NCBI GenBank assembly: GCA_018645085.1
Contig: JABGPG010000238.1
Span: 11,699-56,455, forward strand
Direction: 5' to 3'
DNA length: 44,757 nucleotides
Source of the DNA: Deltaproteobacteria bacterium
GTDB taxonomy: Bacteria; SAR324; NAC60-12
The position numbers and the translations under genes were made by a program. Numbering within the stretch: position 1 is the first letter of the stretch; every line of letters begins with the position of its first letter. Of the stretch, positions 1-16,367 are shown in pieces. The notes below the pieces were generated by a model. It was not told where the DNA came from and searched no databases. It saw nothing but the letters and a program-made list of their open reading frames with translations.

Positions 1-623
1 ATCATTCTCAAGAAAGTTTCAGCAGCCATCTTTTTCATCTTGGCGAGAGAAGATTCGTGGGATTTTCCTGCACCTAAAAACATCGTCATGCCTTCTATAG
101 AACAAGAAATATATAAGGCAAGCTCACGTTTCGAGTCCTCTTTCAGCTCAGGGTTGACCCCGTCAATCAAGTTATAAATCACTTGTCTTTCCGCAGTATA
201 CATCTGATTCATCAATTGGGCAGCATAAGGGTCGTGGTTAGACAAGGCCCATAGTTCAGGAAAAAATTTTGTGGTTTCCTGAGTATTTAGATCTTGAACA
301 AGGTATTCAATCACTGAGGTGAAACGCTCCTCCGGAACAGCACTGGCATCTTCAATAATCTTGTCGAACTCTTTCAGGTAAGACTTCAAAATATTATCAA
401 GCATATCGCGAAAAAGTGCTTCTTTCGTTTGATAATAATAATTAAGATTCCCTACAGTAATTCCTGCCATTAACGCAACCCGCCTCATGGTCAGTTTGTT
501 GTAACCGTTCTCAACAAATACTTCTCTGGCCACCTCAAGGATGATCTCGATGCGCTCCTGCCCTTTGACAAAACGGGACTTTTTTGCCCGAGACAGAGGT
601 CTGTTTTTTTCGTCAGCAGTCAT
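1..623 (-). CDS. TetR/AcrR-family transcriptional regulator (3' end truncated by window edge)
   Basis: Manual reverse-strand translation from the ATG at 623: MTADEKNRPLSRAKKSRFVKGQERIEIILEVAREVFVENGYNKLTMRRVALMAGITVGNLNYYYQTKEALFRDML... The N-terminal HTH is typical of TetR. The ORF is open to the window edge. Confidence 0.85.
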   Translation of the reverse strand, partial: MTADEKNRPLSRAKKSRFVKGQERIEIILEVAREVFVENGYNKLTMRRVALMAGITVGNLNYYYQTKEALFRDMLDNILKSYLKEFDKIIEDASAVPEERFTSVIEYLVQDLNTQETTKFFPELWALSNHDPYAAQLMNQMYTAERQVIYNLIDGVNPELKEDSKRELALYISCSIEGMTMFLGAGKSHESSLAKMKKMAAETFLRM

Positions 624-984: not shown

Positions 985-2313
985 ATGGAATTACCTGAAA
1001 TACAAGAAGTAATTAAGCAAGCAGACATTGATTCAATTCGGATCGATTTCCCTGACATACATGGAATTTGCCGAAGCAAGCTGATACCCGCCAGACGTTT
1101 GGAAGCTACACTTGAAGAAGGGTTGAATTTTGCGGAAGCGACCTACATTGTAGATTTTGCAAACGACATAGCTTTTGAAGGTGGATGTGGTGGTGATTCA
1201 GGTTGGTCAGATATGACAGCCCGTCCAGACCTTGAGACCTTCGCGATTTTACCTCATCAACCTCATACCGCCCGTATCATTGCCAATACTTTTTTAAAAG
1301 GGGTTCCGCATCCCGTAGACCCCAGAGGCACATTAAAGAAAATTTTGGATCGCTACGAAAAGCTGGGTTTGAAAGCCTTTGCTGCATCTGAGTTGGAATT
1401 TATGCTCTTCGATCCAGTCAGTGGAGAAAATTACAACAATTCACCTTCCTGTGTTTATCAGGTTAATTCTTCGGTGGATAAACTTGGTATATTGCGTACC
1501 ATCCAAAACGCGTGTCTGGATTTGGGTATTGAGATTATTTATCTTAATCATGAATTTTTCCCAGGACAGTTTGAGGTCAATTGGAAATACTGTGATGCCA
1601 TGAAAATGGCGGATCAGACTTTCACTTTCAAACATCTCTGCAAGGAAATCGCCACCCAAAACGACTTGCATCTCACTTTCATGGGGCGGCCAAAAAGTGG
1701 CGGCGGCGGAAATGGTTATCATATCCATCTATCTTTAAATAATCTGGATAATGGAAAAAATGCCTTTGACGAGCCGGACGGAAAAGACGGTATGTCTGAA
1801 CTCCAACGCCATTTTATCGGTGGTCAATTAGCTCATGCGAAAGGTATGGCTGCCCTGTTGGCACCGACAATCAATTCCTATAAGCGCTATGTTCCGGACT
1901 CATTTGCTCCATATTTTATAGCCTGGGGCGGAGATAACCGTACTGTATATTGCAGGGTCCCGGATGAACGTGGAACAGCTGCCAGAGTTGAAAACCGCTC
2001 CGCTTGTGCGTCCGCTAATCCTTACCTTGCTATTGCCGCTACTTTAGCTGCCGGATTGGATGGTATCGAAAATAAAATCGATCCGGGAGAACCGGCAAAT
2101 TGTGATATTTATCACGATGAATCCGGACAATATGAACCAATGCCGTTTTATCTCCGTGATGCGATTAATGCCTTAAAAAAAGATGAATTTCTGAATGAAA
2201 TCTTCAGTCCGGAATTGTTGTCAGCATTTATTGCACTCAAAGAACGAGAGGAAGATCGTTTTAGAACAGCGGTAACAGATTGGGAATTTAACGAATATTC
2301 CTATCATCTTTAA
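985..2313 (+). CDS. gmaS: Glutamine synthetase family protein (GmaS/GlnT-like, gamma-glutamylmethylamide synthetase-like)
   Basis: 442 aa with the GS catalytic domain (AASELEFMLFD, GGGGNGYHIHLSL, RVENRSACASANPYLAIAATLAAG). It is followed directly by three Mgs-type subunits, which supports GmaS-like rather than housekeeping GlnA. Confidence 0.75.
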   Translation: MELPEIQEVIKQADIDSIRIDFPDIHGICRSKLIPARRLEATLEEGLNFAEATYIVDFANDIAFEGGCGGDSGWSDMTARPDLETFAILPHQPHTARIIANTFLKGVPHPVDPRGTLKKILDRYEKLGLKAFAASELEFMLFDPVSGENYNNSPSCVYQVNSSVDKLGILRTIQNACLDLGIEIIYLNHEFFPGQFEVNWKYCDAMKMADQTFTFKHLCKEIATQNDLHLTFMGRPKSGGGGNGYHIHLSLNNLDNGKNAFDEPDGKDGMSELQRHFIGGQLAHAKGMAALLAPTINSYKRYVPDSFAPYFIAWGGDNRTVYCRVPDERGTAARVENRSACASANPYLAIAATLAAGLDGIENKIDPGEPANCDIYHDESGQYEPMPFYLRDAINALKKDEFLNEIFSPELLSAFIALKEREEDRFRTAVTDWEFNEYSYHL

Positions 2314-2443
2314 TTGAAAAAACAGGCTATATAAAAAAATAAACAAGTACAGGAGATAGAGATTTGTTGAAGGCGCTTGAAAGTAGAGCACTGATAAAAT
2401 CCAGCTATCCTCTAACCTAGTTAAAATAATAAAAGGTTTGCTT

Positions 2444-3361
2444 ATGTGTGGACTCACAGGAATCATTGCTAATAATCCGGAAGGACTAGGTGTTGGCTTA
2501 ACAAAAATGCTCAAGGAGATTGAGCATCGTGGACGGGATGCCACCGGATTTGCAGTGTATGAAATCCGGGATGATATTCAAATTCGTGTTTCTATCCGGA
2601 ACATCGACAGCAAACCGGAGTTGTTGAAAATTCTTGAAAAATACGATCAACCCTCTGCAACCAACGTAACTTCCAGTGGCCGCAGCTACAAAGGTGTGGG
2701 GATTTTCGATTTTTATGAAACTTCGCTAAACATGCCACCTTCAGAAATCGAAGCCCTGCATCACGAAATAGACAGCCATCCTGATTTGTGCGTTCATTCG
2801 CTTGGTAAAAAAATTAAAGTTTATAAAGATCAAGGTACGGCGCGCGATTTGGAGAACCATCATCAATTTAATATCGGCCCGGCTACACACGGCATCGGTC
2901 ATGTACGCTTGGCAACGGAAAGCCTAGAGGATATTAATTTTGCCCACCCTTTCATATCTGAAATGTATCCGGGATTAAGTCTGGTACATAATGGACAATT
3001 CACTAATTATTTCAATTTGCGCCGTAGTTTGGAAACAAAAGGTGTACGCTTCAAAACTAATAATGATTCTGAAATAGCAGTCCAGTATCTGGCTTTTCTA
3101 ATGAAACAAAATGGAGGTGATCTCGAAGGGGCAATACATCAGGCGATGGAAAAGTTCGATGGTGTGTTTACCATAATTGTCAGTACGGAAGATCAAATCG
3201 GCATTTTTCGCGATGAGTTGGGAATGAAGCCTGTTTTGTTTTTTGAAACAGAGGACGGTTCGGTCTTGTTTGGTTCAGAAGAAATATCACTGGCCAAAAT
3301 AGCAACAGATGTGAATGCGACTGAAATGGAACCAGGAGGAGTGAAAGTATGGAACATTTAG
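2444..3361 (+). CDS. mgsA: Class II glutamine amidotransferase subunit, MgsA/GlxB-like (N-methylglutamate synthase subunit A)
   Basis: Starts MCGLTGIIANN, with the Cys nucleophile at position 2. The track start at 2438 is an upstream TTG; ATG at 2444 is the likely start. Other family features: HGIGHVRLATES, LVHNGQFTNY, FRDELGMKPV. Confidence 0.75.
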   Translation: MCGLTGIIANNPEGLGVGLTKMLKEIEHRGRDATGFAVYEIRDDIQIRVSIRNIDSKPELLKILEKYDQPSATNVTSSGRSYKGVGIFDFYETSLNMPPSEIEALHHEIDSHPDLCVHSLGKKIKVYKDQGTARDLENHHQFNIGPATHGIGHVRLATESLEDINFAHPFISEMYPGLSLVHNGQFTNYFNLRRSLETKGVRFKTNNDSEIAVQYLAFLMKQNGGDLEGAIHQAMEKFDGVFTIIVSTEDQIGIFRDELGMKPVLFFETEDGSVLFGSEEISLAKIATDVNATEMEPGGVKVWNI

Positions 3362-4053
3362 ACATCACAGGTAAAAGTATTGGTGAGACAAATCGGGCAT
3401 TAAGAAATCTCATTGCCGATCATGATCAAGTGATCATTGACAATCCACATTCCTCACACAATTTGGGAACAGCTCTCAAAGGCAATGGCAAGGTAACCAT
3501 CAACGGCAGCACTGGCTATTTCACCGGCGGTTTTTTGGCCGGGCCTACTCTTGATATCCTGGGGAACACTGGATGGTACACCGGTGATAATATGAGTGCC
3601 GGTGAAATTATTATTAGCAAAAACACCGGAAGCAACTGTGGTCCTTCGATGATGGGAGGCACTATTCTGGTACGCGGTAATAGCGGAAGCCGTGTAGGTT
3701 TTGCGATGAAAGGTGGAAATCTGATTGTCTGCGGAGATGTTGGACGCTGGGCCGGTTACATGACTTTGGGCGGACGCATCATTGTGTTAGGTGAAATGGG
3801 GCCGGTAATCGGTGAATCAATGTACCGTGGCATTATTCATACCGCTGATCCTGCTGTGGAAAAGAAGTTGGGAAATAATGTCAGCGTTATTCCCATTTCG
3901 GATGCTGAAAAAAAAGAAGTCTCTGCCCTGTTTGAAAAATACCAAATTGATCATCCAGTTAACTCTTTGAAAAGCGTGATTCCGTTAAAAACAGGACGGA
4001 CAAAATATACGATATTTAATCCAACTCACAAAGTGAGGTCTAAAAATGACTGA
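3349..4053 (+). CDS. mgsB: GltB C-terminal (GXGXG) domain-like protein, MgsB/GlxC-like
   Basis: Repeated Gly-rich beta-helix (GNTGWYTGDNMSAGEIIISKNTGSNCGPSMMGGTILVRGNSGSRVG...). Overlaps the end of mgsA. Confidence 0.75.
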   Translation: MEHLDITGKSIGETNRALRNLIADHDQVIIDNPHSSHNLGTALKGNGKVTINGSTGYFTGGFLAGPTLDILGNTGWYTGDNMSAGEIIISKNTGSNCGPSMMGGTILVRGNSGSRVGFAMKGGNLIVCGDVGRWAGYMTLGGRIIVLGEMGPVIGESMYRGIIHTADPAVEKKLGNNVSVIPISDAEKKEVSALFEKYQIDHPVNSLKSVIPLKTGRTKYTIFNPTHKVRSKND

Positions 4054-5359
4054 AGAAGCAACAAAAACAAGAAACCGTAAAAAAGATAAAATTCCAAAGG
4101 TGCCAAATCCCGATGGAATATGGACAAAAGAGGTTCGCGCTGAAATAAATCATAAAGCAGTAACCGGTCAGCATCGTATACGTGGAATGGGTGTAAACAT
4201 GCGATACCCCAACTTTGATGATTTGCTGGTTTTGCCGGCGCAGCTTTCACGTTTGTCTGTCGACACTTACCGCGAACCATGTGTCACCAAAACAGTTTTG
4301 GGAACACGCTTCGCGAAAAAACCGCTGGAAATTGAAACTCCGATTATGATTTCCGGAATGTCATACGGTGCGTTAGGTAAAGAAGCAAAAACCGCATTGG
4401 CCAAAGCAACCCAAATTGTCGGGACTTCGATCAATAACGGAGAAGGCGGATTACTTCCGGAAGAAAGAGACAACTCCTATAAACAGGTTGTACAGATCCT
4501 TCCCAGCCGTTTCGGCTTTTCGCTGGAAACGATTGAAGCTGCGGATGCGCTGGAAATTATTTGCGGAATTGGGGCGAAACCCGGACTTACAGGACATCTC
4601 TTAGGAAGTAAAATTACAGAGGAAATTGCGGAAATGCGACAAATTCCTGCAGGACTGGATCTTTACAGCCATCCTCGTCACGGTGATATATTTGGTCCGG
4701 ATGACATGGTTTTGAAAATTCAGGAACTGAGAGATATTACCAATTATGAAATTCCGATTTTCCTGAAAATTGCGGCAGGCCGTGTTACTGAAGATGTTAA
4801 AATTGCCGTTAAAACCGGTGCGGACGGAGTCGTGATTGATGGCTGTCAGGGCGGTACAGGAGCGGCGCCGGTAGTGGCTTTGAAACATTTGGGCATCCCT
4901 ACCTTACCAGCATTGGTGCAAGCCACAAAGGCTCTTGAGGATATGGGGGTCAAAGATGAATTCAGTCTCATCGTTTCAGGCGGGATCAAGGACGGAGCGG
5001 ATGTTGCCAAAGCAATGGCACTTGGTGCGGATGCAGTTGCTATCGGAACCGGAGCGAATATTGCCTTGGGATGCACGACCTGTCACCAGTGCCACGAAGG
5101 AATTTGCGGTTCCGGAATCTGTACGCAAGAACCGCAGTATCGTGAATTGCTTAAATGTGACGCAGCTGAAAGAGTGGCAAATTATATAACTGCCATGACA
5201 AACGAAGCTGTGATCCTCGCCAAAGCAGCGGGTAAAACTAGGCTGTCAAATCTGGAGCGGGAAGACATTCGTTCAATTACTTTGGAAGCTTGTGCAATGA
5301 CCGGAATTCCATTGGTCGGAACAAATTATACTTTTACGGAAAGGTTTGGGTTTTGTTGA
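4046..5359 (+). CDS. mgsC: FMN-binding glutamate synthase-like protein, MgsC/GlxD-like
   Basis: Contains METPIMISGMSYGALGKEAKTALAKA-type GltB FMN domain, GGTGAAPVVALKHLGIPT, and CTTCHQCHEGICGSGICTQ for an Fe-S site. Overlaps mgsB. Confidence 0.78.
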   Translation: MTEEATKTRNRKKDKIPKVPNPDGIWTKEVRAEINHKAVTGQHRIRGMGVNMRYPNFDDLLVLPAQLSRLSVDTYREPCVTKTVLGTRFAKKPLEIETPIMISGMSYGALGKEAKTALAKATQIVGTSINNGEGGLLPEERDNSYKQVVQILPSRFGFSLETIEAADALEIICGIGAKPGLTGHLLGSKITEEIAEMRQIPAGLDLYSHPRHGDIFGPDDMVLKIQELRDITNYEIPIFLKIAAGRVTEDVKIAVKTGADGVVIDGCQGGTGAAPVVALKHLGIPTLPALVQATKALEDMGVKDEFSLIVSGGIKDGADVAKAMALGADAVAIGTGANIALGCTTCHQCHEGICGSGICTQEPQYRELLKCDAAERVANYITAMTNEAVILAKAAGKTRLSNLEREDIRSITLEACAMTGIPLVGTNYTFTERFGFC

Positions 5360-5383
5360 CATTATAAATCAGAGCTAATCTGC

Positions 5384-5668
5384 TTGAAACAGTTGTTCAG
5401 GATTGACAAATGTTACTTTTGGGTTCCGTTTTTTGAATTACAAAAGATGTTGATGTTATCAAGTGACTCTATGCAGAAAAACGAAATATTTGTTGATTTA
5501 ATAATTCCGGTGAAATGGAAGCAGGCAACGCTGGGGAGTGACCTGCCAAGGGATAACCGGAAGTTTTTTTCATACCTTGAAAACCTAAAGAAGGAGGCTA
5601 CAGGGAAAAAAGGATTCCGATTTCGTAATCAATTTATGCTGTATTACGACTTGATGAATCCGGCTTAA
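5384..5668 (+). CDS. Hypothetical protein, 94 aa; existence uncertain
   Basis: Same-strand ORF filling the gap between mgsC and the binding-protein gene. TTG start; no family recognised. Confidence 0.3.
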   Translation: MKQLFRIDKCYFWVPFFELQKMLMLSSDSMQKNEIFVDLIIPVKWKQATLGSDLPRDNRKFFSYLENLKKEATGKKGFRFRNQFMLYYDLMNPA

Positions 5669-5747
5669 CTTGTAATCCGGCATGTGTCATTCCTCTTCAT
5701 GGTGAATTGGAAAGCGCCTGCCATAGTAATAAACAAATAGAGGTAAA

Positions 5748-6935
5748 ATGAAACACTTTGTAATTACGACAATGTTCGGAACATTGGTAGTACTTCTTTC
5801 ACTGGGAACGGTTTCAGCCGGATCGTTCAATATTGATGCTGTACTTGCAACAAATCTTTCGTCCTGTAAAGCAGCTCCGAGTGGGACACCTTTGAAAATC
5901 GGTTATGCCGCCGATTTTTCGGATCTGGGAGGATTTGCTGATAAACCAGCCAGTCAAGCCGCATTATATTTTGTGGAACTGGTTAACTGTGCAGGCGGAG
6001 TTGACGGATCTCCAATCAAGTTAATTATAAAAAATATCGAAGGCAATCCGGAAGTAACTCAACGTGTCGGACATGAATTGATGGCTGCAGGAGTATCAGC
6101 CATGCTCGGACCTCCATTTCCGGATTTCGGTGAGCCTCTGTTACAAGTAACTGCAGGAAAAGTTGCGACTCTGTTTGTTGCTTCAACAGAACCCATGCTG
6201 GCTAATTCAAAAGCACTTTCGTACCTGGTCGCTTTTGATGACACAGCGCAAGCGACCGCCGCCGCCAAATTCGCACTTCAACAAGGATGGAGAACGGCGG
6301 TAACATTTTCCGCACCTGGTCCTTATTTTGGTTACAATCCGAAAATTTTCAGCAAAGTTTTCAAAGCCGGTGGAGGTAGCATAACCGCCGATTACAACTT
6401 TGTGCCGATTGATGACATGGATTTTTCCACGCAAGCCAATAAAATGGCTTCGGCGGGAAAAGCTCCGGATGTGGTTTATTCAGCCATGCTTTCCTTTCAA
6501 AGTGCTGTTTTGCGGGGGCAGTTAGATGCTGCTGGTGTAAAGACTAATTATCTGGTAACCGATGCTTTTGAAGCAACAGGAGGTTATTTCACAAAAGGCG
6601 TAGAAGGTTTTTATCACACTACACATTCCTATCCGGCGGAGGGTAGCCGCGTCAAAATATTAGCTGACGGTTATCAGGCAGCAAAAGGCGCTCCTTTGGA
6701 AAATGCCTCTTTCGGTGGATTGGCTGTTGATGCATTGGCAGTCATTATCAGTGCTTTCCAAAGTTCTGGTTCAATGGATCCAAAAATACTTGGTGCTGCA
6801 ATTGCTAATGCCGACGGAGTAGAAGGTGCTACAAGTAACCTTTCTTATTCGGGTGCCAATGGAGCTCCTTCTAAACCGGTCTTTGTTCACCGTGTTGTAG
6901 ATGGAGCACCAACGTTAGCGGCCACAATTCAGTAA
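5748..6935 (+). CDS. Periplasmic substrate-binding protein of a HAAT/Liv-type ABC transporter
   Basis: Signal peptide (MKHFVITTMFGTLVVLLSLGTVSAG), then a Peripla_BP_6-like sequence (LKIGYAADFSDLGG...AALYFVELVNCAGGVDG). Immediately upstream of livF/livH/livMG. Confidence 0.8.
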   Translation: MKHFVITTMFGTLVVLLSLGTVSAGSFNIDAVLATNLSSCKAAPSGTPLKIGYAADFSDLGGFADKPASQAALYFVELVNCAGGVDGSPIKLIIKNIEGNPEVTQRVGHELMAAGVSAMLGPPFPDFGEPLLQVTAGKVATLFVASTEPMLANSKALSYLVAFDDTAQATAAAKFALQQGWRTAVTFSAPGPYFGYNPKIFSKVFKAGGGSITADYNFVPIDDMDFSTQANKMASAGKAPDVVYSAMLSFQSAVLRGQLDAAGVKTNYLVTDAFEATGGYFTKGVEGFYHTTHSYPAEGSRVKILADGYQAAKGAPLENASFGGLAVDALAVIISAFQSSGSMDPKILGAAIANADGVEGATSNLSYSGANGAPSKPVFVHRVVDGAPTLAATIQ

Positions 6936-7663
6936 TGGATAGTGGTTTGCTTAACGTTGAAAACCTGAATACCCGCTATGGTTCTATACGAGCTATTCGC
7001 AGAGTCGGATTAACTGTTAAGGCTGGTGAGATTGTCTGTCTCATCGGCCCTAATGGTGCAGGAAAAACGACTTTGCTGGGGACTGTAGCAGGGCTATTGA
7101 ATCCGGTTCAGGGACAGGTAGTTTTCAATAATGTAGATATAACAGGCTGGTCTCCGGATCGAGTACTCCGTGCAGGTCTTTCCCTAGTACCGGAACATCG
7201 CAGAATTTTCGGCAACTTTACTGTTCGTGAGAATCTGCTAGTTGGCGGTGTGACTCTATCTCAGGATCAACGGGAAAATTTGCTGGAGGAAATGCTGGAC
7301 CTTTTTCCTGTACTGAAAGATAAACTTTCGGTTTCCGCCGGATTTCTCTCTGGTGGTGAAGCTCAACAACTTGCCATAGGCCGTGCCTTGATGAGCAACC
7401 CTAAAATGCTGCTCATGGATGAGCCGTCATTGGGTTTGGCACCTGTACTTGTGGATGTGGTGTTTGAACTGATCTCCAAATTGCGTGATAGTGGTCGGAC
7501 CCTGCTGGTTGTGGAACAAAACGCACAACGTATACTTAACGTTGCCGACAGGGCTTATGTGATGCGTTCGGGGCAGGTTGTCGCAGAAGGTTCGGCTTCA
7601 GAATTGTCAGGAAGCGAGGACCTTTTTAAGACTTACCTTGGTGGTTCGGGAGTTGCGGCGTGA
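6935..7663 (+). CDS. livF: ABC transporter ATP-binding protein, LivF-like
   Basis: Walker A GPNGAGKTT; signature LSGGEAQQLAIGRALMSNPKMLLMDEPSLGLAP, typical of LivF. Confidence 0.88.
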   Translation: MDSGLLNVENLNTRYGSIRAIRRVGLTVKAGEIVCLIGPNGAGKTTLLGTVAGLLNPVQGQVVFNNVDITGWSPDRVLRAGLSLVPEHRRIFGNFTVRENLLVGGVTLSQDQRENLLEEMLDLFPVLKDKLSVSAGFLSGGEAQQLAIGRALMSNPKMLLMDEPSLGLAPVLVDVVFELISKLRDSGRTLLVVEQNAQRILNVADRAYVMRSGQVVAEGSASELSGSEDLFKTYLGGSGVAA

Positions 7664-8547
7664 TGGAACTGATTCAACAAATTGTCGATGGTTTGGGGCG
7701 AGGTAGTATTTACGCTTTGCTTGCTCTAGGGATTGCTGTGATTTTCGGAGTGATGCACATGGTCAATTTTGCACACGGCGAACTTATCACGGTCAGTGCA
7801 TACACTAGTTACTGGCTGCTTACAAGCGGCTTTGATTGGTGGTATGTGGCATTGGCGATAATAGTTGTTGCGGCTATTAGCTCTGTTGTTATTGAATTTG
7901 TGGCGTTTCGCTGGGTACGCGGCGCGCCTGACTTTACCATGTTGATGACCTCTTTTGGAGTCCATTTTCTAGTGCAGGCACTTTTCGTAATGTACGTGTC
8001 GGCTAATTTTCGACAATTTCCGCGCCCTGACTGGATATTTAACACTTGGAAAATTGGTGCAATCAACCTTGAAATTTACGACTTAGCGGTAATTGCTACC
8101 ACATTAATCACACTTCTCGGTACTTATTGTCTTTTACAACATACGATGTTTGGTATAAGCCTGCGCGCTGCAGCCGAAGATTTTGATGCTGCCCATCTTA
8201 TGGGTATTCGCAGTAACCGCGTTATCCGGGGAGCATTTTTTCTTTCCGGTCTTTTAGCTGGAGTTGCCGCAGTATTTTGGTTGATGCGTAGCGGTCAAGC
8301 CGGACCTGTTGCAGGTCTCAATCCAATGTTAAAAGGTGTTTTGGCTGCTTTAATTGGTGGTCTGGGAAGCCTGAGTGGAGCCGTGCTTGGAGGATTTGCG
8401 TTGGGCTTGGTTGAAGTTCTACTTATCGCACGCCTGCCGACCGAAGTTGTTGGCTTGACAGATGGAATTGTTTTTGTGCTGATTGCTCTACTTTTTGTTT
8501 TTCGACCTCAGGGTTTAATAACTGTGCATCACGTGGAGCGTGTCTGA
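7660..8547 (+). CDS. livH: Branched-chain amino acid-type ABC permease, LivH-like
   Basis: GLGRGSIYALLALGIAVIFGVMHMVNFAHGEL and LRAAAEDFDAAHLMGI, typical of LivH. Overlaps livF. Confidence 0.88.
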   Translation: MMELIQQIVDGLGRGSIYALLALGIAVIFGVMHMVNFAHGELITVSAYTSYWLLTSGFDWWYVALAIIVVAAISSVVIEFVAFRWVRGAPDFTMLMTSFGVHFLVQALFVMYVSANFRQFPRPDWIFNTWKIGAINLEIYDLAVIATTLITLLGTYCLLQHTMFGISLRAAAEDFDAAHLMGIRSNRVIRGAFFLSGLLAGVAAVFWLMRSGQAGPVAGLNPMLKGVLAALIGGLGSLSGAVLGGFALGLVEVLLIARLPTEVVGLTDGIVFVLIALLFVFRPQGLITVHHVERV

Positions 8548-10400
8548 TGCGACATGACTCTATCCGCCATCTCGTTTTTCCAACATTTGGCTCAATCTTA
8601 CTGATTGTGGTTTTGATTTGCGGGGGCATACTTTATACAGCAAACGGCGATGCATCACGTGACAGTCTGATCACACAAATGCTGATAAATGCCATCATCG
8701 TGCTTGGTATTCAAATTTACATCGGAAACACAGGAGTTTTATCCTTTGGGCACATCGGTTTCGGAGCGATTGCCGGATATACATTTGCTATTTGTGCCAT
8801 TTCTCCTGCACGTAAAATGATGCAAATTCCTGATGCTCCGTTTGGACTGGCGAATGTTGACTTGACCCCTTTAGCGTCAGGAATAATCGCAGTTGGTCTA
8901 ACAGTAGCGTTGGCATTTTTTGTCGGCATGGCACTTTCACGTGCAGGTGTCCGTTCAGGTGCAGTATCAGCAGTTGTGATTACTTTGGCCCTACTGTTTG
9001 TCGTTCACGAAGTAGCTCGAAACTGGACAGATCTGACCCGTGGAGGGAAGATAGGCCTTTCTTTCAGCCCTTTTGGTAATGCAACTCTTGAAGGGAAAAA
9101 CTGGATTTACGTATTTTTGTTTTGTGCGGTTTTGCTGGCTAGACTATTCAAGGAAACGCGAATTGGCCGTTTTGCGCAGTGCGTGCGTGAAGACGATCTT
9201 GCTGCGCGGACGATGGGAATTGATCCAGCAATTCAGCAAATGTGGGCTTTAATTATTTCAGTAGCCCTAGTGTCGGTTGGATCGACCTTAAGAGTTTTTG
9301 AGTTAGGTAGCATCAATCCAAGGTTGTTCTTTTTTGATTATACATTATTGACGCTCACCATGCTAATAGTCGGAGGGCGTAACGGTATTACTGGTGCTTT
9401 GACCGGAGTAGTGATTATCACCATCGGTAGTGAACTGACTCGCAAATTGTCTGAATTGGATATTGTAGCATTGAGTTGGATTTTGCGTGAAGGTCTGACC
9501 GATTTATTTCTGGGCGGCGCTATGCTCGGATTTATGATTCTGCGGCCTGCCGGTATTTTAGGAGATTTTGAGTTTGATCATTGGCTGCACGAACGATTCC
9601 TCCATAGGCAAAAGAAAAAGACTTGGACATCGAAGGAAGAACAGATACGAAGCAAAGTTGTTAAAAAAAACCAAACCGTGTTGAATGTTGAAGGTGTCAG
9701 CGTTAATTTTGGCGGTTTTCGGGCACTGGGAAATGTAGAGTTGAAGGCTACCGGGGACGAAATCGTGGGACTGATTGGTCCCAACGGCGCGGGAAAAACG
9801 ACATTGCTGAATGTTATTACAGGACTTGTAGAACCAGATTCCGGGCGAGTCCAACTCGGTGAAAAGAATTTGACGGGAATGCAACCGCACGAAATTGCAA
9901 GATCTGGATTGGTACGCACCTTTCAAAATTTTCGGTTATTTTCAGACCTGAGTGTCCGTGAAAATATCGAGGTAGTCCACTTGATGGCCGGAAAGTACCG
10001 TTCTGCACAAACTCCGGATGTTGACACTTTGCTGTTTCAAGCGGGGCTTTGGGAGTTTCAAAGTTTAAGAGCTGCAGGTTTGGATTATGGAAATGCACGG
10101 CGGTTGGAATTGGCACGTGCTGTTGCCGCCGCACCGGATTTTCTTCTACTTGATGAGCCAACAAGCGGAATGGATGATAACGAATCAATGGCCATGATTG
10201 ACCAAGTACGGACAATGTCTTCAATGGTTGGTTCCGGAGTTGTTGTTATCGACCACGATTTGAATTTCATCACCGGAATTTGTGACCGGGTTTATGTGCT
10301 TGACCAGGGGTGTGTGATTGCCTCCGGAACACCTGCGGAAATTTCAGCCGATCCTGCAGTAAAAGTGGCGTATTTGGGTACAACTGCCGAAGCTGCCTGA
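8547..10400 (+). CDS. Fused permease-ATPase, LivM-LivG-like
   Basis: 617 aa. The N-terminal half is LivM-like (GNTGVLSFGHIGFGAIAGYTF). The C-terminal half is LivG-like (GPNGAGKTTLLNVITGLVEPDSGRV, GLVRTFQNFRLFSDLSVRENIEV, LLLDEPTSGM), joined by a Lys-rich linker. Confidence 0.88.
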   Translation: MRHDSIRHLVFPTFGSILLIVVLICGGILYTANGDASRDSLITQMLINAIIVLGIQIYIGNTGVLSFGHIGFGAIAGYTFAICAISPARKMMQIPDAPFGLANVDLTPLASGIIAVGLTVALAFFVGMALSRAGVRSGAVSAVVITLALLFVVHEVARNWTDLTRGGKIGLSFSPFGNATLEGKNWIYVFLFCAVLLARLFKETRIGRFAQCVREDDLAARTMGIDPAIQQMWALIISVALVSVGSTLRVFELGSINPRLFFFDYTLLTLTMLIVGGRNGITGALTGVVIITIGSELTRKLSELDIVALSWILREGLTDLFLGGAMLGFMILRPAGILGDFEFDHWLHERFLHRQKKKTWTSKEEQIRSKVVKKNQTVLNVEGVSVNFGGFRALGNVELKATGDEIVGLIGPNGAGKTTLLNVITGLVEPDSGRVQLGEKNLTGMQPHEIARSGLVRTFQNFRLFSDLSVRENIEVVHLMAGKYRSAQTPDVDTLLFQAGLWEFQSLRAAGLDYGNARRLELARAVAAAPDFLLLDEPTSGMDDNESMAMIDQVRTMSSMVGSGVVVIDHDLNFITGICDRVYVLDQGCVIASGTPAEISADPAVKVAYLGTTAEAA

Positions 10401-10624
10401 AAAATAAAATTGTTTTGTGGGAGAAGTATGTTAAGTAAATAGAATTATTAGAAACTAATGAATTCCTTCAAATACTCAAATTATTTATCTGTGGCAGTCA
10501 GTAATCTCCTTGTTTTTTAAAGTTATTACATTGCTGATGAACCGCTAAAAAGACCAAGACGAACCATTGCTTACAAAGCAAGAAATATATTTAAATTTAC
10601 TGCATTAATATCAATATTTCTCCC

Positions 10625-10643
10625 TATTGTCGAAATGACAATA
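10625..10643. promoter_or_regulatory. Perfect inverted repeat TATTGTC-GAAAT-GACAATA, candidate operator for the dehydrogenase/AOR module
   Basis: Seven-bp perfect arms in a 294-bp AT-rich intergenic gap, about 50 bp upstream of the 2Fe-2S subunit start. Confidence 0.45.
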
Positions 10644-10694
10644 TAAGGATTTCAAAGTTTATAAGAAGGCATCATTTCTATACAAAAAATCAAA

Positions 10695-10973
10695 ATGACA
10701 GCGACACGATACAAAAAAATCGAACGGGGCAAGCCCATCAGCATTATGGTCAACGGTGAAGCGATCGAAGCTTTTCACGGCGAAAGCATTGCTGCCGCAA
10801 TGCTGGCTTCAGGAAGAAGAGCTTTTCGTCATACGGTCAAAGGAAAACAAGCCCGTGGTTTCTTTTGTGGAATGGGTATGTGTTTTGACTGCATTGCCAC
10901 GGTTGACGGAGTTCCACATGTGCGGACATGTATGACTGAGGTTTCTCCTGATTGTGTTGTGGAACTGGAATAA
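10695..10973 (+). CDS. (2Fe-2S)-binding small subunit, HcnA / opine oxidase / sarcosine oxidase alpha N-terminal-like
   Basis: 92 aa: ISIMVNGEAIEAFHGESIAAAMLASGRRAFR...RGFFCGMGMCFDCIATVDGVPHVRTCMTEV, a plant-type ferredoxin-like 2Fe-2S motif. Confidence 0.82.
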   Translation: MTATRYKKIERGKPISIMVNGEAIEAFHGESIAAAMLASGRRAFRHTVKGKQARGFFCGMGMCFDCIATVDGVPHVRTCMTEVSPDCVVELE

Positions 10974-11106
10974 AATTCTTTAGTGTTATGGGATTCGACG
11001 GCACACGATTCTGTTAACCAAAGAGTTGATTAGATTCCAAAGTATAATTAGCTAAACTTATGAATTTCTTGAAAATTTAATTTTATTAAACATATAAATA
11101 TTAAAG

Positions 11107-12561
11107 ATGTTTGAAAAACCTGAACAAACGGATATAGCCATTATCGGGGCGGGGCCTGCCGGAGTTGCTGCTGCTGTTACAGCGGCACATGCAGGTGCGC
11201 AGGTTACGCTTCTGGATGAATCTCCTCGTGCAGGTGGTCAGTATTATAAACAACCGGCCTTGGACGCAAAAGACAAACAGTTCCCCCCGACGGTTGCTGA
11301 AAATATTCGCAAGGGTCGGGAATTGTTGAGCGATTTGCAACATTCAAATATCAATTTTCAGCACAGTACTTTGGTTTGGAATGTACTGCCGGAAGAGCGA
11401 ATTCTCAATTTGTATGGTCCACAAGGCGCACAAAACTTACAGGCAAAGCGCATCATAATTGCCGCAGGTGCCTACGAACGTGTAACTCCTTTTACAGGCT
11501 GGACAAAACCCGGAGTGACTACAGTTGGCGGTGCGCAGCTTTTATTGAAGTCGCAGGGATTGAAAATCGGACAACGTTTGCTTTTAGCCGGAACCGGACC
11601 TTTGCTTCAACTTGCGGCGGTGCAGTTTATGGAAGCAGGAATGGAAGTTGCGGCAATTCTGGAATTGCAGTCACGCAAGGAATTTTTGTTAAAAGCTCCT
11701 AAATTATGGGGACATTGGGACAAACTCGGGCAAGGAATGGCGAATCAGAAACGTTTGCTCGAAGCAGGGATTCCGTTTAAATTCGGCTACACCGTCGCAG
11801 AAGCTACAGGTGATGAAGAGGTAAACGGAGCGGTGATTATGAAAGTAAATGGGAAGGGAATTCCGGTTTTGGGAAGTGAAGAAACAATTGAAGTTGATAC
11901 TATTTGTTTGAATTACGGTTTTGCACCGGCGGTTGAATTAGCTCGTGTAGCAGGGTGCACAATGGTTTTTGATAAATATTTTGGTAGTTTTGCAATTGAA
12001 ACAAATGAGAACCTGGAAACCAGTGTCAATGCTTTTTTCGTAGCTGGAGAAACTCGGGGTATCGGCGGAGTGGAAGTTGCGTTGCTCGAAGGAAAATTGG
12101 CGGGAGCTATCGCCGGTAGTCAATTGGGATTCACTCCGAAAGTTGATGAAAGCAATTTACGAAAAGAACAACAACAGGCAAGGAAAGCGGTCGCTGCACT
12201 TGGTACTATGTTTCCGCTCAAATCCGGATTATGTAAATTGGTAAAGGACGAAGTTCCTGTTTGCCGATGTGAAGAAGTGACTGCTGGAGAAGTACGCAGA
12301 GCAATTGAAATGGGAGTAACTCAACTAAATCAATTAAAACCCTGGACCCGTGTCGGAATGGGACGTTGTCAAGGCAGGATTTGCGGAGGAATTCTGAATC
12401 AAATGTTGGCAGATGAAACTGGTGTGTCAATAAGTGAAATCCAGCCTTTCACGTCGAGAGCACCTATCAAGCCTGTGCCTATGGAATCAGTCGGTGGAGG
12501 GGATGATTCCGGCGAATTCACCTGGGAAGATCATGTAGGTTACGGAGCAGCGAGGACATGA
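11107..12561 (+). CDS. FAD/NAD(P)-binding oxidoreductase, HcnB / opine oxidase subunit A-like with C-terminal [2Fe-2S] BFD-like domain
   Basis: TDIAIIGAGPAGVAAAVTAAHAGAQVTLLDESPRAGGQYY; C-terminal VCRCEEVTAGEVRRAI...GMGRCQGRICGG. Confidence 0.82.
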   Translation: MFEKPEQTDIAIIGAGPAGVAAAVTAAHAGAQVTLLDESPRAGGQYYKQPALDAKDKQFPPTVAENIRKGRELLSDLQHSNINFQHSTLVWNVLPEERILNLYGPQGAQNLQAKRIIIAAGAYERVTPFTGWTKPGVTTVGGAQLLLKSQGLKIGQRLLLAGTGPLLQLAAVQFMEAGMEVAAILELQSRKEFLLKAPKLWGHWDKLGQGMANQKRLLEAGIPFKFGYTVAEATGDEEVNGAVIMKVNGKGIPVLGSEETIEVDTICLNYGFAPAVELARVAGCTMVFDKYFGSFAIETNENLETSVNAFFVAGETRGIGGVEVALLEGKLAGAIAGSQLGFTPKVDESNLRKEQQQARKAVAALGTMFPLKSGLCKLVKDEVPVCRCEEVTAGEVRRAIEMGVTQLNQLKPWTRVGMGRCQGRICGGILNQMLADETGVSISEIQPFTSRAPIKPVPMESVGGGDDSGEFTWEDHVGYGAART

Positions 12562-14282
12562 TAATGAAGAAACTTAAAGCAGATGTTATCATTATCGGTG
12601 GAGGAATTGTCGGCTGCACTACTGCATACAATTTGTCGCAACGCGGTGCTGATGTTTTACTGATAGAAAAAAATGGTATCGGTAGTGGTGCTACGGGGCG
12701 GTCCGGTGGAGGAATTCGTCAATCGGCCAGGGTTTCCAACGAAATTCCTTTGGCCATGGAAAGCGTGGCGTTATTTCCGGGATTGTCAGCTGAACTTGGG
12801 ATTGACATTGAATACACTCAGTCCGGTAATTTCAGGCTGGTCGAAATGCCCGACCATCTGCGTCCAATGCAAGTTGATGTCGCCCGGCAGCAATCGCACG
12901 GCTTGGATGTGCGTTGGCTTGGTGTAACGGATGTCCTGGAACTTGCTCCGGGACTGCGCTGGCAAAATATCATGGGGGCAAGCTATTGTCCTGATGATGG
13001 ACATTGTGATCCATTCCGCATGGTTTCAGGCTTTTTTCGTAAAGCAAAAGAATTCGGCACAAAGGTTTTACTAAACAGCGAGGTACAAAGCATTGAGCAA
13101 ACGGATGACGGAAAAGCCGTTGTCAAAACCAGCACACATTCCGTTCAAGCAGAAAAAGTGATTATTGCGGCAGGCTTTGGTTCGCAGGAATTATGTCAAA
13201 AAATAGGTTTGGATTTGCCTCTGCAAAATGTGCGTTACGAATCCATGGTTACAGAACCGCTGCCTCCGATTTTATCACAAATGTTCGGGGTGGCCAGCAG
13301 TGATTTGTTTTTCCGGCAGACGCAGAACGGTGGAATTCATTTTGGGGGGGGGCTGCTCGAGGAAGAAGATGAGGAAGACACCAAGACTACCCGAGATAAT
13401 TTAAACATGGCTGTGGCGCATATTTCCCGACTAGTCAAGGACTTGGGAAAAACCAACTTGCTGCGGACATGGGGAGGACTTGATCCGAGTACTCCTGATG
13501 GTATGCCGATCCTCGATTATCTCAATGAAAACGTCTTGCTGGCCACAGGTTTTTGCGGACACGGCTTGGCGCTGGGACCCATTGTCGGAAGATATTTAGC
13601 GGAATGGATATCCAGCGGCCAACTTCCGGAAGCACTGGAACCATTCAAGCGGAACCGTTTTGACGGTTGGCTCCAAACTAAATGGACCCCCTCTGGTGCA
13701 TTTGCGGCAGTTTTAGCAACCGAAGACACTCAGACTTCCGGAAGAGGAACTGTTGGATCCGGGATCCCGTTTATGACACCGCCGGAATATGATGATTCGG
13801 AAGATGAAGGTTTGCATAAATTATTGTCGGTGAATCCGGAAATGTGTACCGGCTGCCGGATGTGCGAAAGTGCGTGTTCCATTGAACACGAAAAAATGGT
13901 TCGCCAAACTGGTTTACGGATTCAGGTGGCTTATCCGAGTGATGACTTTTTTCTGCCGATTATGTGCATTCATTGCGAAGAAATGCACTGCATGGAGGCT
14001 TGCGTATACGATGCTTTGGAAATCAACGATTATGGAATTGTTTCAGTTGTTGATGAAAATTGTATAGGCTGCATGCTCTGTATTCCGGCCTGTCCCACTG
14101 GAGGAATAACGTATGTAGACAGCAAAGAAACAGTTGTCAAATGCAATCTATGTGGTGGGAATCCGGCTTGTGCCAAATATTGTCCCACACAAGCAATTAC
14201 CTTCCGTCCGATTGATGATGAAATCCGTGAAAAAATGGAGACTGTGATGAGCAAACATCTTGATTCACGAATAGAAAAGTAA
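12558..14282 (+). CDS. FAD-dependent (DAO-family, HcnC/opine oxidase subunit B-like) oxidoreductase fused to a four-cluster [4Fe-4S] polyferredoxin
   Basis: N-terminal ADVIIIGGGIVGCTTAYNLSQRGADVLLIEK...GATGRSGGGIRQ (DAO). C-terminal CTGCRMCESAC, CIHCEEMHCMEAC, CIGCMLCIPACP and CNLCGGNPACAKYCP: 16 Cys in four cluster motifs. Confidence 0.85.
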   Translation: MIMKKLKADVIIIGGGIVGCTTAYNLSQRGADVLLIEKNGIGSGATGRSGGGIRQSARVSNEIPLAMESVALFPGLSAELGIDIEYTQSGNFRLVEMPDHLRPMQVDVARQQSHGLDVRWLGVTDVLELAPGLRWQNIMGASYCPDDGHCDPFRMVSGFFRKAKEFGTKVLLNSEVQSIEQTDDGKAVVKTSTHSVQAEKVIIAAGFGSQELCQKIGLDLPLQNVRYESMVTEPLPPILSQMFGVASSDLFFRQTQNGGIHFGGGLLEEEDEEDTKTTRDNLNMAVAHISRLVKDLGKTNLLRTWGGLDPSTPDGMPILDYLNENVLLATGFCGHGLALGPIVGRYLAEWISSGQLPEALEPFKRNRFDGWLQTKWTPSGAFAAVLATEDTQTSGRGTVGSGIPFMTPPEYDDSEDEGLHKLLSVNPEMCTGCRMCESACSIEHEKMVRQTGLRIQVAYPSDDFFLPIMCIHCEEMHCMEACVYDALEINDYGIVSVVDENCIGCMLCIPACPTGGITYVDSKETVVKCNLCGGNPACAKYCPTQAITFRPIDDEIREKMETVMSKHLDSRIEK

Positions 14283-14293
14283 CAGGGAAAATT

Positions 14294-16129
14294 ATGTACT
14301 ACGGATACACCGGAACCATCTTGCGGGTTAATTTGACGCATGGCGAAGTTACAAAAGAAGCACTCGATCTCAAAATGGCAGAAGAATTTGTCGGTGGACG
14401 CGGCTTAGCTTCCAGATTGCTCTGCGCAGAGATTGATCCTGAGATTGAAGCTATGAGTCCGGAAAATCCGCTGATCTTCGGAACAGGACCTTTGACTGGA
14501 ACGGGAGCACCGGCGACTGCGCGTTATGTCGTAGTTTGTAAAGCACCGTTGACTGGAACCATCGCTTGCTCCAATTCCGGAGGCTTTTTTGGACCAGAAA
14601 TAAAATTTGCCGGTTATGACGCACTGATTATTGAAGGCGAGTCTCCTGAACCAGTTTATCTGTGGATCCAGGATGATCGAGTTGAAATACGTTCTGCTTC
14701 ATTATTATGGGGAAAAACTCCCGTTGAGACAGAAAGCACTCTACAGAAGCTGACTCATCCGGCTTCGAAAATCGCCTGCATCGGTCCCGGTGGAGAAAAG
14801 CTGTCTTTGATGGCCGGAATCGTCAATGACAATTATCGTCTCGCAGCGCGAAGTGGAGTTGGTGCTTTGATGGGTAAAAAGAAGCTGAAAGCAATTGCTA
14901 TACGCGGAACCGGAGGAGTGAATCTCGCTGACCCCGAACAGTTTTGGAAAGCATCAATGGACATGCATGCTAAAATTACTGGAGATCCTGTTTCATTTGG
15001 AAGTTTCCGGGCTTACGGTACTGCCAGCCTTGTTAATTTGATCAACGAAATGGGGGCTTATCCCACCCGTAATTTTCAATCAGACACATTTGAAGATGCG
15101 GTAAAAACGGGAGGAGAAGCGATTACAGAAGATATTTTAGAACGTAACCGTGCCTGTTTCGCCTGCCCGATTTCCTGCACCCGGGTGACAGAAGTTAAAG
15201 AGGGACCGTACAAAGGCCGCGGTGAAGGGCCTGAATACGAATCTACCTGGTCTTTAGGCGCTCTCTGCGGGGTTTCGAATCTAGAGGCCGTGGCAAAAGC
15301 AAATTATCTTTGCGGAGATTACGGCATCGACACTATTTCCACCGGAGCGACTATTGCTTGTGCGATGGAGCTTTTTGAAACCGGTGCTTTGTCAGAAAAA
15401 GAAATTGGTTTCCCTCTGCGTTTTGGCGATGAGGCAGCAATGGTGCGAGCAGTTGAAATGACAGGCAAGCGCGAAGGGTTTGGTGATATTTTAGCGGACG
15501 GAAGTTATCGATTGGCTGAACGTTACGGACATCCTGAATTTTTCATGGGCGTAAAAAAACTGGAAATGTCCGCTTACAGCCCCAGAGTTTTTCAGGGTAT
15601 GGCGCTTCAATACGCCACCTCCAACCGTGGAGCGTGTCATGTGCGTGGCAATACTGTAGCTGCTGAACTGTATGGAATTCCACGTTATATGCCTCCGGAA
15701 GTTTTGGAGCAAAAAGAAGAAATGGTGCGGCGTCCATTCCAAAACTCCACTGCTTTTGTGGATTCCACCGGAATTTGTCTTTTTACAAAATTTGCAATAA
15801 CGCACCGTGAAATTTGTGCCTTGCTGGCTCCGGCTACCGGTATTGATTTTAACTTCGACCGCTCGATTGTTCAGGGCGACCGCATCTGGAATTTAGAACG
15901 CATGTTTAACCTTCGCGCCGGATTCACCGCTGCGGATGACAAACTACCCGCCCGCGTGAGTGAACCTTCTCCTGACGGACCGCGTGCCGGCAGCCGCGCA
16001 ATTCTGCAAAACCACATTCAAACCTACTATCAATTACGTGGTTGGGATGAAGAAGGCCGCCCCACTCGTTCAAAGTTGAAAGAGCTAAATTTAGAAGACT
16101 TCTGGAACGTCTGCAGCGAACATGATTAA
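14294..16129 (+). CDS. Aldehyde:ferredoxin oxidoreductase (AOR) family, W/Mo-bis-pterin enzyme
   Basis: 611 aa: MYYGYTGTILRVNLTHGEVTKE...FVGGRGLASRLL, LIFGTGPLTGTGAPATARY, SNSGGFFGPEIKFAGYDALIIEG, CFACPISCTRV ([4Fe-4S]), DSTGICLF. Confidence 0.9.
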   Translation: MYYGYTGTILRVNLTHGEVTKEALDLKMAEEFVGGRGLASRLLCAEIDPEIEAMSPENPLIFGTGPLTGTGAPATARYVVVCKAPLTGTIACSNSGGFFGPEIKFAGYDALIIEGESPEPVYLWIQDDRVEIRSASLLWGKTPVETESTLQKLTHPASKIACIGPGGEKLSLMAGIVNDNYRLAARSGVGALMGKKKLKAIAIRGTGGVNLADPEQFWKASMDMHAKITGDPVSFGSFRAYGTASLVNLINEMGAYPTRNFQSDTFEDAVKTGGEAITEDILERNRACFACPISCTRVTEVKEGPYKGRGEGPEYESTWSLGALCGVSNLEAVAKANYLCGDYGIDTISTGATIACAMELFETGALSEKEIGFPLRFGDEAAMVRAVEMTGKREGFGDILADGSYRLAERYGHPEFFMGVKKLEMSAYSPRVFQGMALQYATSNRGACHVRGNTVAAELYGIPRYMPPEVLEQKEEMVRRPFQNSTAFVDSTGICLFTKFAITHREICALLAPATGIDFNFDRSIVQGDRIWNLERMFNLRAGFTAADDKLPARVSEPSPDGPRAGSRAILQNHIQTYYQLRGWDEEGRPTRSKLKELNLEDFWNVCSEHD

Positions 16130-16367
16130 TGTTACTGTAAAACTCAGCGCCGATTTGCGTCGTTATCGTCCAGCTCTAAGAATTGATGAATCCCTGCCAC
16201 TTTCAGTCCCGGAAGAGACGACTTTGCTGGAACTCCTCTCAGAAATACTACAAATTCCAGCCCATGCGATCGCCATTCCAATTGTCAACGGAGTTAAGTG
16301 TAAACTCAATCAAAAACTGGTAGAAGGTGACCGGGTAGCCTTCTGGCCGCCGATGGCGGGGGGCTAG
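16122..16367 (+). CDS. MoaD/ThiS-family sulfur carrier protein
   Basis: 81 aa beta-grasp-like protein ending ...DRVAFWPPMAGG (C-terminal GG). Overlaps the AOR gene. Confidence 0.8.
   Translation: MINVTVKLSADLRRYRPALRIDESLPLSVPEETTLLELLSEILQIPAHAIAIPIVNGVKCKLNQKLVEGDRVAFWPPMAGG

Follow-up and report, generated by a model that had tools for sequence, protein, structure and literature searches.

A SAR324 gene cluster joining a glutamine synthetase-family ligase to a dehydrogenase-polyferredoxin fusion and an aldehyde oxidoreductase: a candidate amine-oxidation pathway

The cluster and its closest described systems

Amine use based on gamma-glutamylation is known as a methylamine pathway, the N-methylglutamate pathway, whose glutamine synthetase (GS)-type ligase, three-subunit glutamate synthase-like complex and SoxB-family flavoprotein all have relatives in the gene cluster described here. 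This cluster occupies positions 985-16367 of a 44,757-nucleotide stretch (hereafter the window; assembly GCA_018645085.1, contig JABGPG010000238.1, positions 11,699 to 56,455) of a metagenome-assembled genome (MAG) from the SAR324 phylum. Open reading frame (ORF) analysis and domain searches confirmed 13 co-directional + strand genes, from GS to MoaD-like, in the order that had been given in an earlier note made from the sequence alone. Unlike the N-methylglutamate pathway, the cluster encodes GS and Mgs proteins of separate clades, includes an aldehyde oxidoreductase (AOR) and coexists with a canonical GmaS/Mgs set in the same genome, while its dehydrogenase lacks GCV_T, SoxD and SoxG; it is by the SoxA-type alpha subunit with GCV_T, together with SoxD and SoxG, that MgdABCD and heterotetrameric sarcosine oxidase are recognized.

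The dehydrogenase resembles the heteromeric L-proline, D-hydroxyproline and opine dehydrogenases and HCN synthase in its three subunits, two FAD-type Rossmann motifs, gamma-subunit and BFD 2Fe-2S clusters and R-x-W motif, but differs in that its beta subunit is extended by an AOR-type polyferredoxin. The combination of an AOR large subunit with an AorA-like four-cluster polyferredoxin is shared with Aromatoleum AorABC, a Class III tungsten oxidoreductase (WOR); in AorABC, however, AorA is separate and an AorC-like FAD/NAD cap is present, whereas the polyferredoxin of the window is fused to an amine-type dehydrogenase and the FAD/NAD subunit HcnB gave no match to the FAD subunit of 8c0z. The best-scoring large subunit and a matching small subunit were those of 9mqx (chains D and E), which we take to be an electron-bifurcating (Class IV) WOR; unlike that system, the cluster has no WorABC bifurcation module, and its flavin component belongs to the dehydrogenases of the proline dehydrogenase (ProDH) kind. 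A 2026 classification distinguished five classes, defined by subunit composition, among more than 4,000 WORs (PMC13328260); its main text makes no mention of fusion, sarcosine, FAD-dependent or glutamine synthetase, and the sections consulted describe no catalytic dehydrogenase fused to a wire subunit. Each part of the cluster is known by itself; neither their combination nor the fused subunit was encountered in the open-access literature searched, relative to which both are new. We tentatively propose, with confidence falling just short of even, that the cluster would specify a dedicated amine-oxidation pathway, in which an amine is converted via a gamma-glutamylamide and an N-alkylglutamate to glutamate and an aldehyde, and the aldehyde to an acid. 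The genes are as follows.

985..2313, + strand: GS-family ligase (Gln-synt_C, 8e-104; below every NCBIfam cut-off)
2444..3361, + strand: mgsA-like class II glutamine amidotransferase (GATase_6, 6.5e-21)
3349..4053, + strand: mgsB-like GXGXG subunit (GXGXG, 2.4e-23)
4046..5359, + strand: mgsC-like subunit with FMN glutamate-synthase domain (Glu_synthase, 8.7e-102)
5748..6935, + strand: livJ-like substrate-binding protein (Peripla_BP_6, 6.1e-28; 77-90% identity across six other loci)
6935..7663, + strand: livF-like ATPase (ABC_tran, 4.1e-31)
7660..8547, + strand: livH-like permease (BPD_transp_2, 1.9e-34)
8547..10400, + strand: livM-livG fusion, permease and ATPase (BPD_transp_2 and ABC_tran)
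10695..10973, + strand: hcnA-like 2Fe-2S subunit, gamma (Fer2_4, 6.9e-25; Cys 58, 63, 66 and 79)
11107..12561, + strand: hcnB-like FAD/NAD subunit, alpha, with BFD 2Fe-2S and A3 domains (Pyr_redox_2, Fer2_BFD, SO_alpha_A3; no GCV_T)
12558..14282, + strand: hcnC-like FAD dehydrogenase fused to an AorA/WorS-type polyferredoxin (DAO, 6.3e-78)
14294..16129, + strand: AOR/WOR large subunit (AFOR_C, 1.9e-139)
16122..16367, + strand: MoaD-like (WorX-type) accessory protein (ThiS, 7.4e-6; 8-bp overlap with aor)
1..623, - strand: TetR-type regulator, partial, running off the window start and divergent from the GS gene

The dehydrogenase-polyferredoxin fusion and its AOR partner

The fused gene encodes a protein of 574 amino acids (aa), in which residues 1-370 correspond to a DAO-type flavoenzyme and residues 397-553 to a polyferredoxin. 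Among solved structures, the former is closest to 1y56_B, which belongs to an archaeal L-proline dehydrogenase as its beta chain. For the latter the top match is 8c0z_C, an AorA-type polyferredoxin from the AOR of Aromatoleum; 9mqx_E and the small chains of 6x6u and 6x1o rank next. Four Cys motifs are located at residues 430-440, 470-482, 502-512 and 529-542, and all 16 cluster cysteines are invariant across eight copies of the fusion; AorA, as seen in its published structure, holds four clusters and connects AorB with the FAD subunit (PMC10413684). As the eight copies are distributed over seven MAGs, an assembly artefact or chance fusion was rejected. The link between dehydrogenase and AOR is consequently closer than the earlier note had supposed, since the dehydrogenase and an electron-wire subunit of AOR type form one polypeptide.

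The beta portion of the fusion contains the R-x-W FMN motif, a trait of the ProDH/opine group (PMC4575208), and shares 26-30% identity with OoxB and PH1364. All three subunit types of the heteromeric ProDH, opine dehydrogenase and HCN synthase enzymes are represented, namely alpha (FAD and BFD 2Fe-2S), beta (DAO, R-x-W) and gamma (2Fe-2S). HcnB, of 484 aa, shares FAD/NAD, BFD and A3 parts with SoxA but is devoid of the folate-binding GCV_T. Subunits and motifs thus support placement of the dehydrogenase in this heteromeric type, in agreement with its earlier description as opine-oxidase-like; no characterized family member was close to it in the tree.

The AOR large subunit matches 1aor and 8c0z_A, and its top-scoring solved counterpart is 9mqx (665 bits). 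Alignment with 1aor (PfAOR numbering) indicated that Thr243, Glu313, Tyr427, His448 and the four cluster Cys are all retained, these being active-site and cluster residues listed in PMC13328260. The subunit scored 619 bits against AOR and 314 bits against the formaldehyde-specific FOR, and a formaldehyde-specific enzyme is disfavoured, since the latter score is half of the former. The same MAG (G000) harbors a second AOR-family gene on another contig (G000:C140:21472-22689, L147; 655-aa frame).

Conservation and distribution of the cluster

All genomes compared, including that of the window (3.1 Mb, 294 contigs, 88% complete), are MAGs; 109 belong to a gammaproteobacterial order and 52 to the phylum of the window (161 in total), and the fusion was sought in a single close-relative scan of genome contigs, beyond which remoter fusions may exist. 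Synteny of the two halves of the cluster in relatives had been set beforehand as a test, and it was observed both in the congener SAR324 cluster bacterium NIOZ-UU44 (G003) and, as one rearranged cluster, in UBA5680. All 13 genes are collinear in NIOZ-UU44, with protein identities of 72-96%, dN/dS values of 0.02-0.10 for 12 genes (dS being saturated for the GS gene) and the EF-P gene still located 3'. The fusion was detected at full length, with 65-69% identity, in five gammaproteobacterial MAGs (5/109 genomes, as against 2/52 in the phylum of the window); in a 369-genome sample of the gammaproteobacterial class, UBA5680 was the sole carrier.

The UBA5680 locus is compact and reordered (GS-mgsABC-hcnABC-aor-moaD-liv), while that of UBA2133 reads GS-hcnABC-aor-moaD-liv-mgsABC', in which mgsABC' is non-orthologous, and the L057 locus reads GS-hcnABC-aor-moaD-liv before its contig ends after an SDR. 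That UBA2133 pairs the remaining genes with a non-orthologous mgsABC suggests that the Mgs step is wanted. The GS ortholog was found in 5/161 genomes (3/109 and 2/52), each time within the fusion locus, and four of these five carry an Mgs set in the same locus; such co-occurrence would arise by chance with a probability of approximately 2.5e-8 if the genes were independent, a figure that kinship and lateral transfer render only a guide. Every GS ortholog accompanies the fusion, but the converse does not hold, as NP54 and ETNP20 retain the dehydrogenase and AOR without it. A second NP54 copy (L058:11296-19099) consists of hcnABC-aor-moaD without liv, and faces opposite-strand genes for MetF, an MTHFR C-terminal protein, a CoA-transferase and possible Hdr-like proteins.

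Collinearity in NIOZ-UU44, low dN/dS and recurrence in shuffled form in gammaproteobacterial MAGs argue that the gene run is not fortuitous, and the two halves are supported as one conserved unit across two phyla, rearranged forms included. The cassette is common to two unrelated groups of uncultured bacteria, the SAR324 phylum and gammaproteobacteria. The halves might conversely be mere neighbors, a GS/GOGAT-like nitrogen module and an unrelated amino-acid dehydrogenase/AOR that were laterally moved together, as the patchy occurrence in two phyla and the gaps between blocks in the window would allow. Such an explanation appears very improbable, given that linkage persists across phyla despite changed gene order, that spacing in UBA5680 is tight, that none of the 161 genomes has the GS ortholog without the fusion and that a TetR-type regulator also accompanies both the window and UBA5680 clusters. 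The window regulator shares 56% identity over 196 aa with its UBA5680 counterpart at the matching place (L056:3053-3640), which matches TetR_N and the BetI-type TetR_C_6; none was found near the NIOZ-UU44 cluster.

The ligase, its candidate substrate and the predicted pathway

Alignment of the window GS with GmaS of Paracoccus aminophilus pAMI6 and of other reference plasmids revealed a different pocket, the canonical YQNDHEDANGQFEMNW ... TSGATWAP corresponding to IIYLNHEFFPGQFEVNW ... PDSFAP in the window protein. At the positions of RhGmaS, Asp177 is replaced by Asn, Gln175 by Tyr and Trp300 by Phe, whereas Glu186 is kept; the flap also differs. Asp177 of RhGmaS is reported to be strictly conserved and to deprotonate methylamine (PMC7948447). 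The window GS scored 333 bits against TIGR03105 (curated GS III), below the cut-off of 470, and the cluster GS proteins form a clade separate from known GmaS (support 100/99); plasmid-borne relatives all share less than 60% identity with it, the top one listed being unannotated at 38.6%. Its earlier designation as gmaS-like is thus not sustained in the sense of GmaS identity, which was rejected on account of the Asn at Asp177, the flap and the clade, and a canonical GmaS is encoded elsewhere in the genome, on contig C128. The protein is a probable gamma-glutamylamine synthetase, whose amine is probably other than methylamine. For the mgsABC-like genes, the earlier assignment holds with respect to the presence of all three subunit types beside a GS-family gene, but not to membership of the canonical MgsC clade, as the window MgsC shares 46-48% identity with canonical MgsC and the cluster MgsC proteins form a separate clade (100/100).

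The canonical set on C128 lies near an Amt gene and shares 61-66% (GmaS) and 80-83% (MgsABC, with 80-83% for MgsC) identity with methylotroph references. This locus (L113; G000:C128:9000-28900) also adjoins a quaternary-amine-type ABC transporter, and the contig carries a second GS/Mgs-like set, the GS gene of which runs into N. SoxB, SoxA (with GCV_T) and SoxD-type genes, of the sarcosine oxidase or Mgd kind, are present on contig C50, where SoxG was not recognized; such genes occur both there (L111) and in NIOZ-UU44 (L112; G003:C21), with YtoQ-like and aminotransferase-like candidates among them. The earlier statement that mgdABCD is absent accordingly holds for the window alone, and the genes on C50 go some way towards what that note had itself named as evidence against its reading, mgdABCD elsewhere in the genome. 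In view of the C128 and C50 sets, the cluster represents an additional pathway rather than an established replacement of MgdABCD, and the methylamine route is probably encoded elsewhere in the genome.

A variant N-methylglutamate pathway for methylamine, in which formaldehyde released by HcnABC would be oxidized to formate by the AOR in place of the folate capture of MgdABCD, would follow the same logic as GmaS-MgsABC-Mgd and would agree with both the lack of a folate domain in HcnB and the failure to pick up a canonical-type GmaS ortholog in NIOZ-UU44 or UBA5680. We nevertheless judge it improbable, because the genome of the window already has canonical GmaS/MgsABC, the window GS lacks the Asp177 equivalent and the GmaS flap, and the large subunit is AOR-type rather than FOR-type; together, the last feature and the coexisting GmaS argue against both methylamine and formaldehyde.

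In the proposed amine-oxidation pathway, the Liv importer would take up the amine or a precursor, and the GS-family enzyme would join the amine, probably not methylamine, to glutamate to form a gamma-glutamylamide. The MgsABC-like complex would then move the amine to 2-oxoglutarate, and the resulting N-alkylglutamate would be cleaved by the HcnABC-type flavin complex to glutamate and an aldehyde. As HcnB lacks the GCV_T folate module, the carbonyl product would leave free, and would be removed by the AOR; docked on the fused polyferredoxin domain, this enzyme is predicted to oxidize the aldehyde to the acid on the spot. Its electrons would enter a common FeS/flavin network and perhaps exit via HcnB, the net conversion being R-CH2-NH2 to R-COOH with nitrogen kept as glutamate. 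Genes, linkage, fusion and conserved residues are directly observed, while the reactions, their order, channelling and the electron acceptor are predicted. A bolder version, which we regard as possible yet doubtful, is that N-alkylglutamate dehydrogenase and tungsten AOR form a single wired supercomplex on one fused nanowire subunit, in which the aldehyde would pass on by channelling, and NAD+ or ferredoxin would be reduced from a common pool of flavin electrons and low-potential electrons of the AOR. Such an assembly, if real, would constitute a novel machine that converts amine to carboxylate in two steps and serves a new amine pathway.

Several results weigh against the proposed pathway. 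Intergenic gaps of approximately 390 and 290 bp separate three blocks in the window, no result singles out the amine, the AlphaFold model of the fusion (mean pLDDT 41) is too poor to use for the predicted AOR docking, and the NP54 and ETNP20 loci (hcnABC-aor-moaD-liv) have no GS ortholog. The last of these indicates that the dehydrogenase-AOR pair can exist alone and that a directly imported substrate is possible: the Liv importer would feed the dehydrogenase with an amino acid, either cyclic or N-substituted, from which HcnABC would yield an aldehyde for the AOR to finish, and GS/Mgs would be dispensable, capturing the freed amine. HcnABC relatives act on proline, hydroxyproline and opines, and opine dehydrogenase genes likewise adjoin ABC transporters (PMC4575208). 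We consider this direct route unlikely, however, as each of the five genomes with the GS ortholog has it ahead of the dehydrogenase and nowhere else, an Mgs set shares the locus in four of these five, and the GS-less cases are MAGs that hold other GS/Mgs sets.

The NP54 set (L143:3425-10895; G058:C66) comprises a canonical-looking GmaS, MgsA, a 674-aa fusion of MgsB with MgsC and a protein of 885 aa that begins like GltD. That of ETNP20 (L142:634-5079; G062:C67) comprises mgsABC-like genes and, immediately after them, a single DAO flavoprotein gene, a possible further variant of an N-alkylglutamate pathway. This distinct predicted arrangement is an independent Mgs-flavoenzyme pairing, and was counted in favor of the proposed pathway. 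DAO/dimethylglycine dehydrogenase-like proteins of more than 800 aa gave 23 matches in G000 and many in most of the genus, which suggests broad use of N-methyl amino acids.

The proposed pathway would join gamma-glutamylation-based amine use with tungsten aldehyde oxidoreductases, a pairing not described in the literature searched. The fused gene provides a specific metagenomic marker for tracing the route, and a GS homolog adjoining mgsABC need not mark methylamine use.

With regard to the window itself, the mgsA-like ORF was listed from a TTG at 2438 (block 2438-5359), the ATG at 2444 being the probable true start, with an N-terminal Met-Cys-Gly. A 94-aa ORF with a TTG start between mgsC and livJ (5384-5668) has no Pfam match and is probably not a gene. 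For LivJ, PDB matches were not strong enough to indicate its ligand and the AlphaFold model (mean pLDDT 34) was too poor to use, and a promoter and terminator scan of the window returned signals at shuffle level only. The cluster is followed 3' by an EF-P gene and then by a class II aminoacyl-tRNA synthetase-like gene, which, judged by its position, we take to be EpmA/GenX-like.

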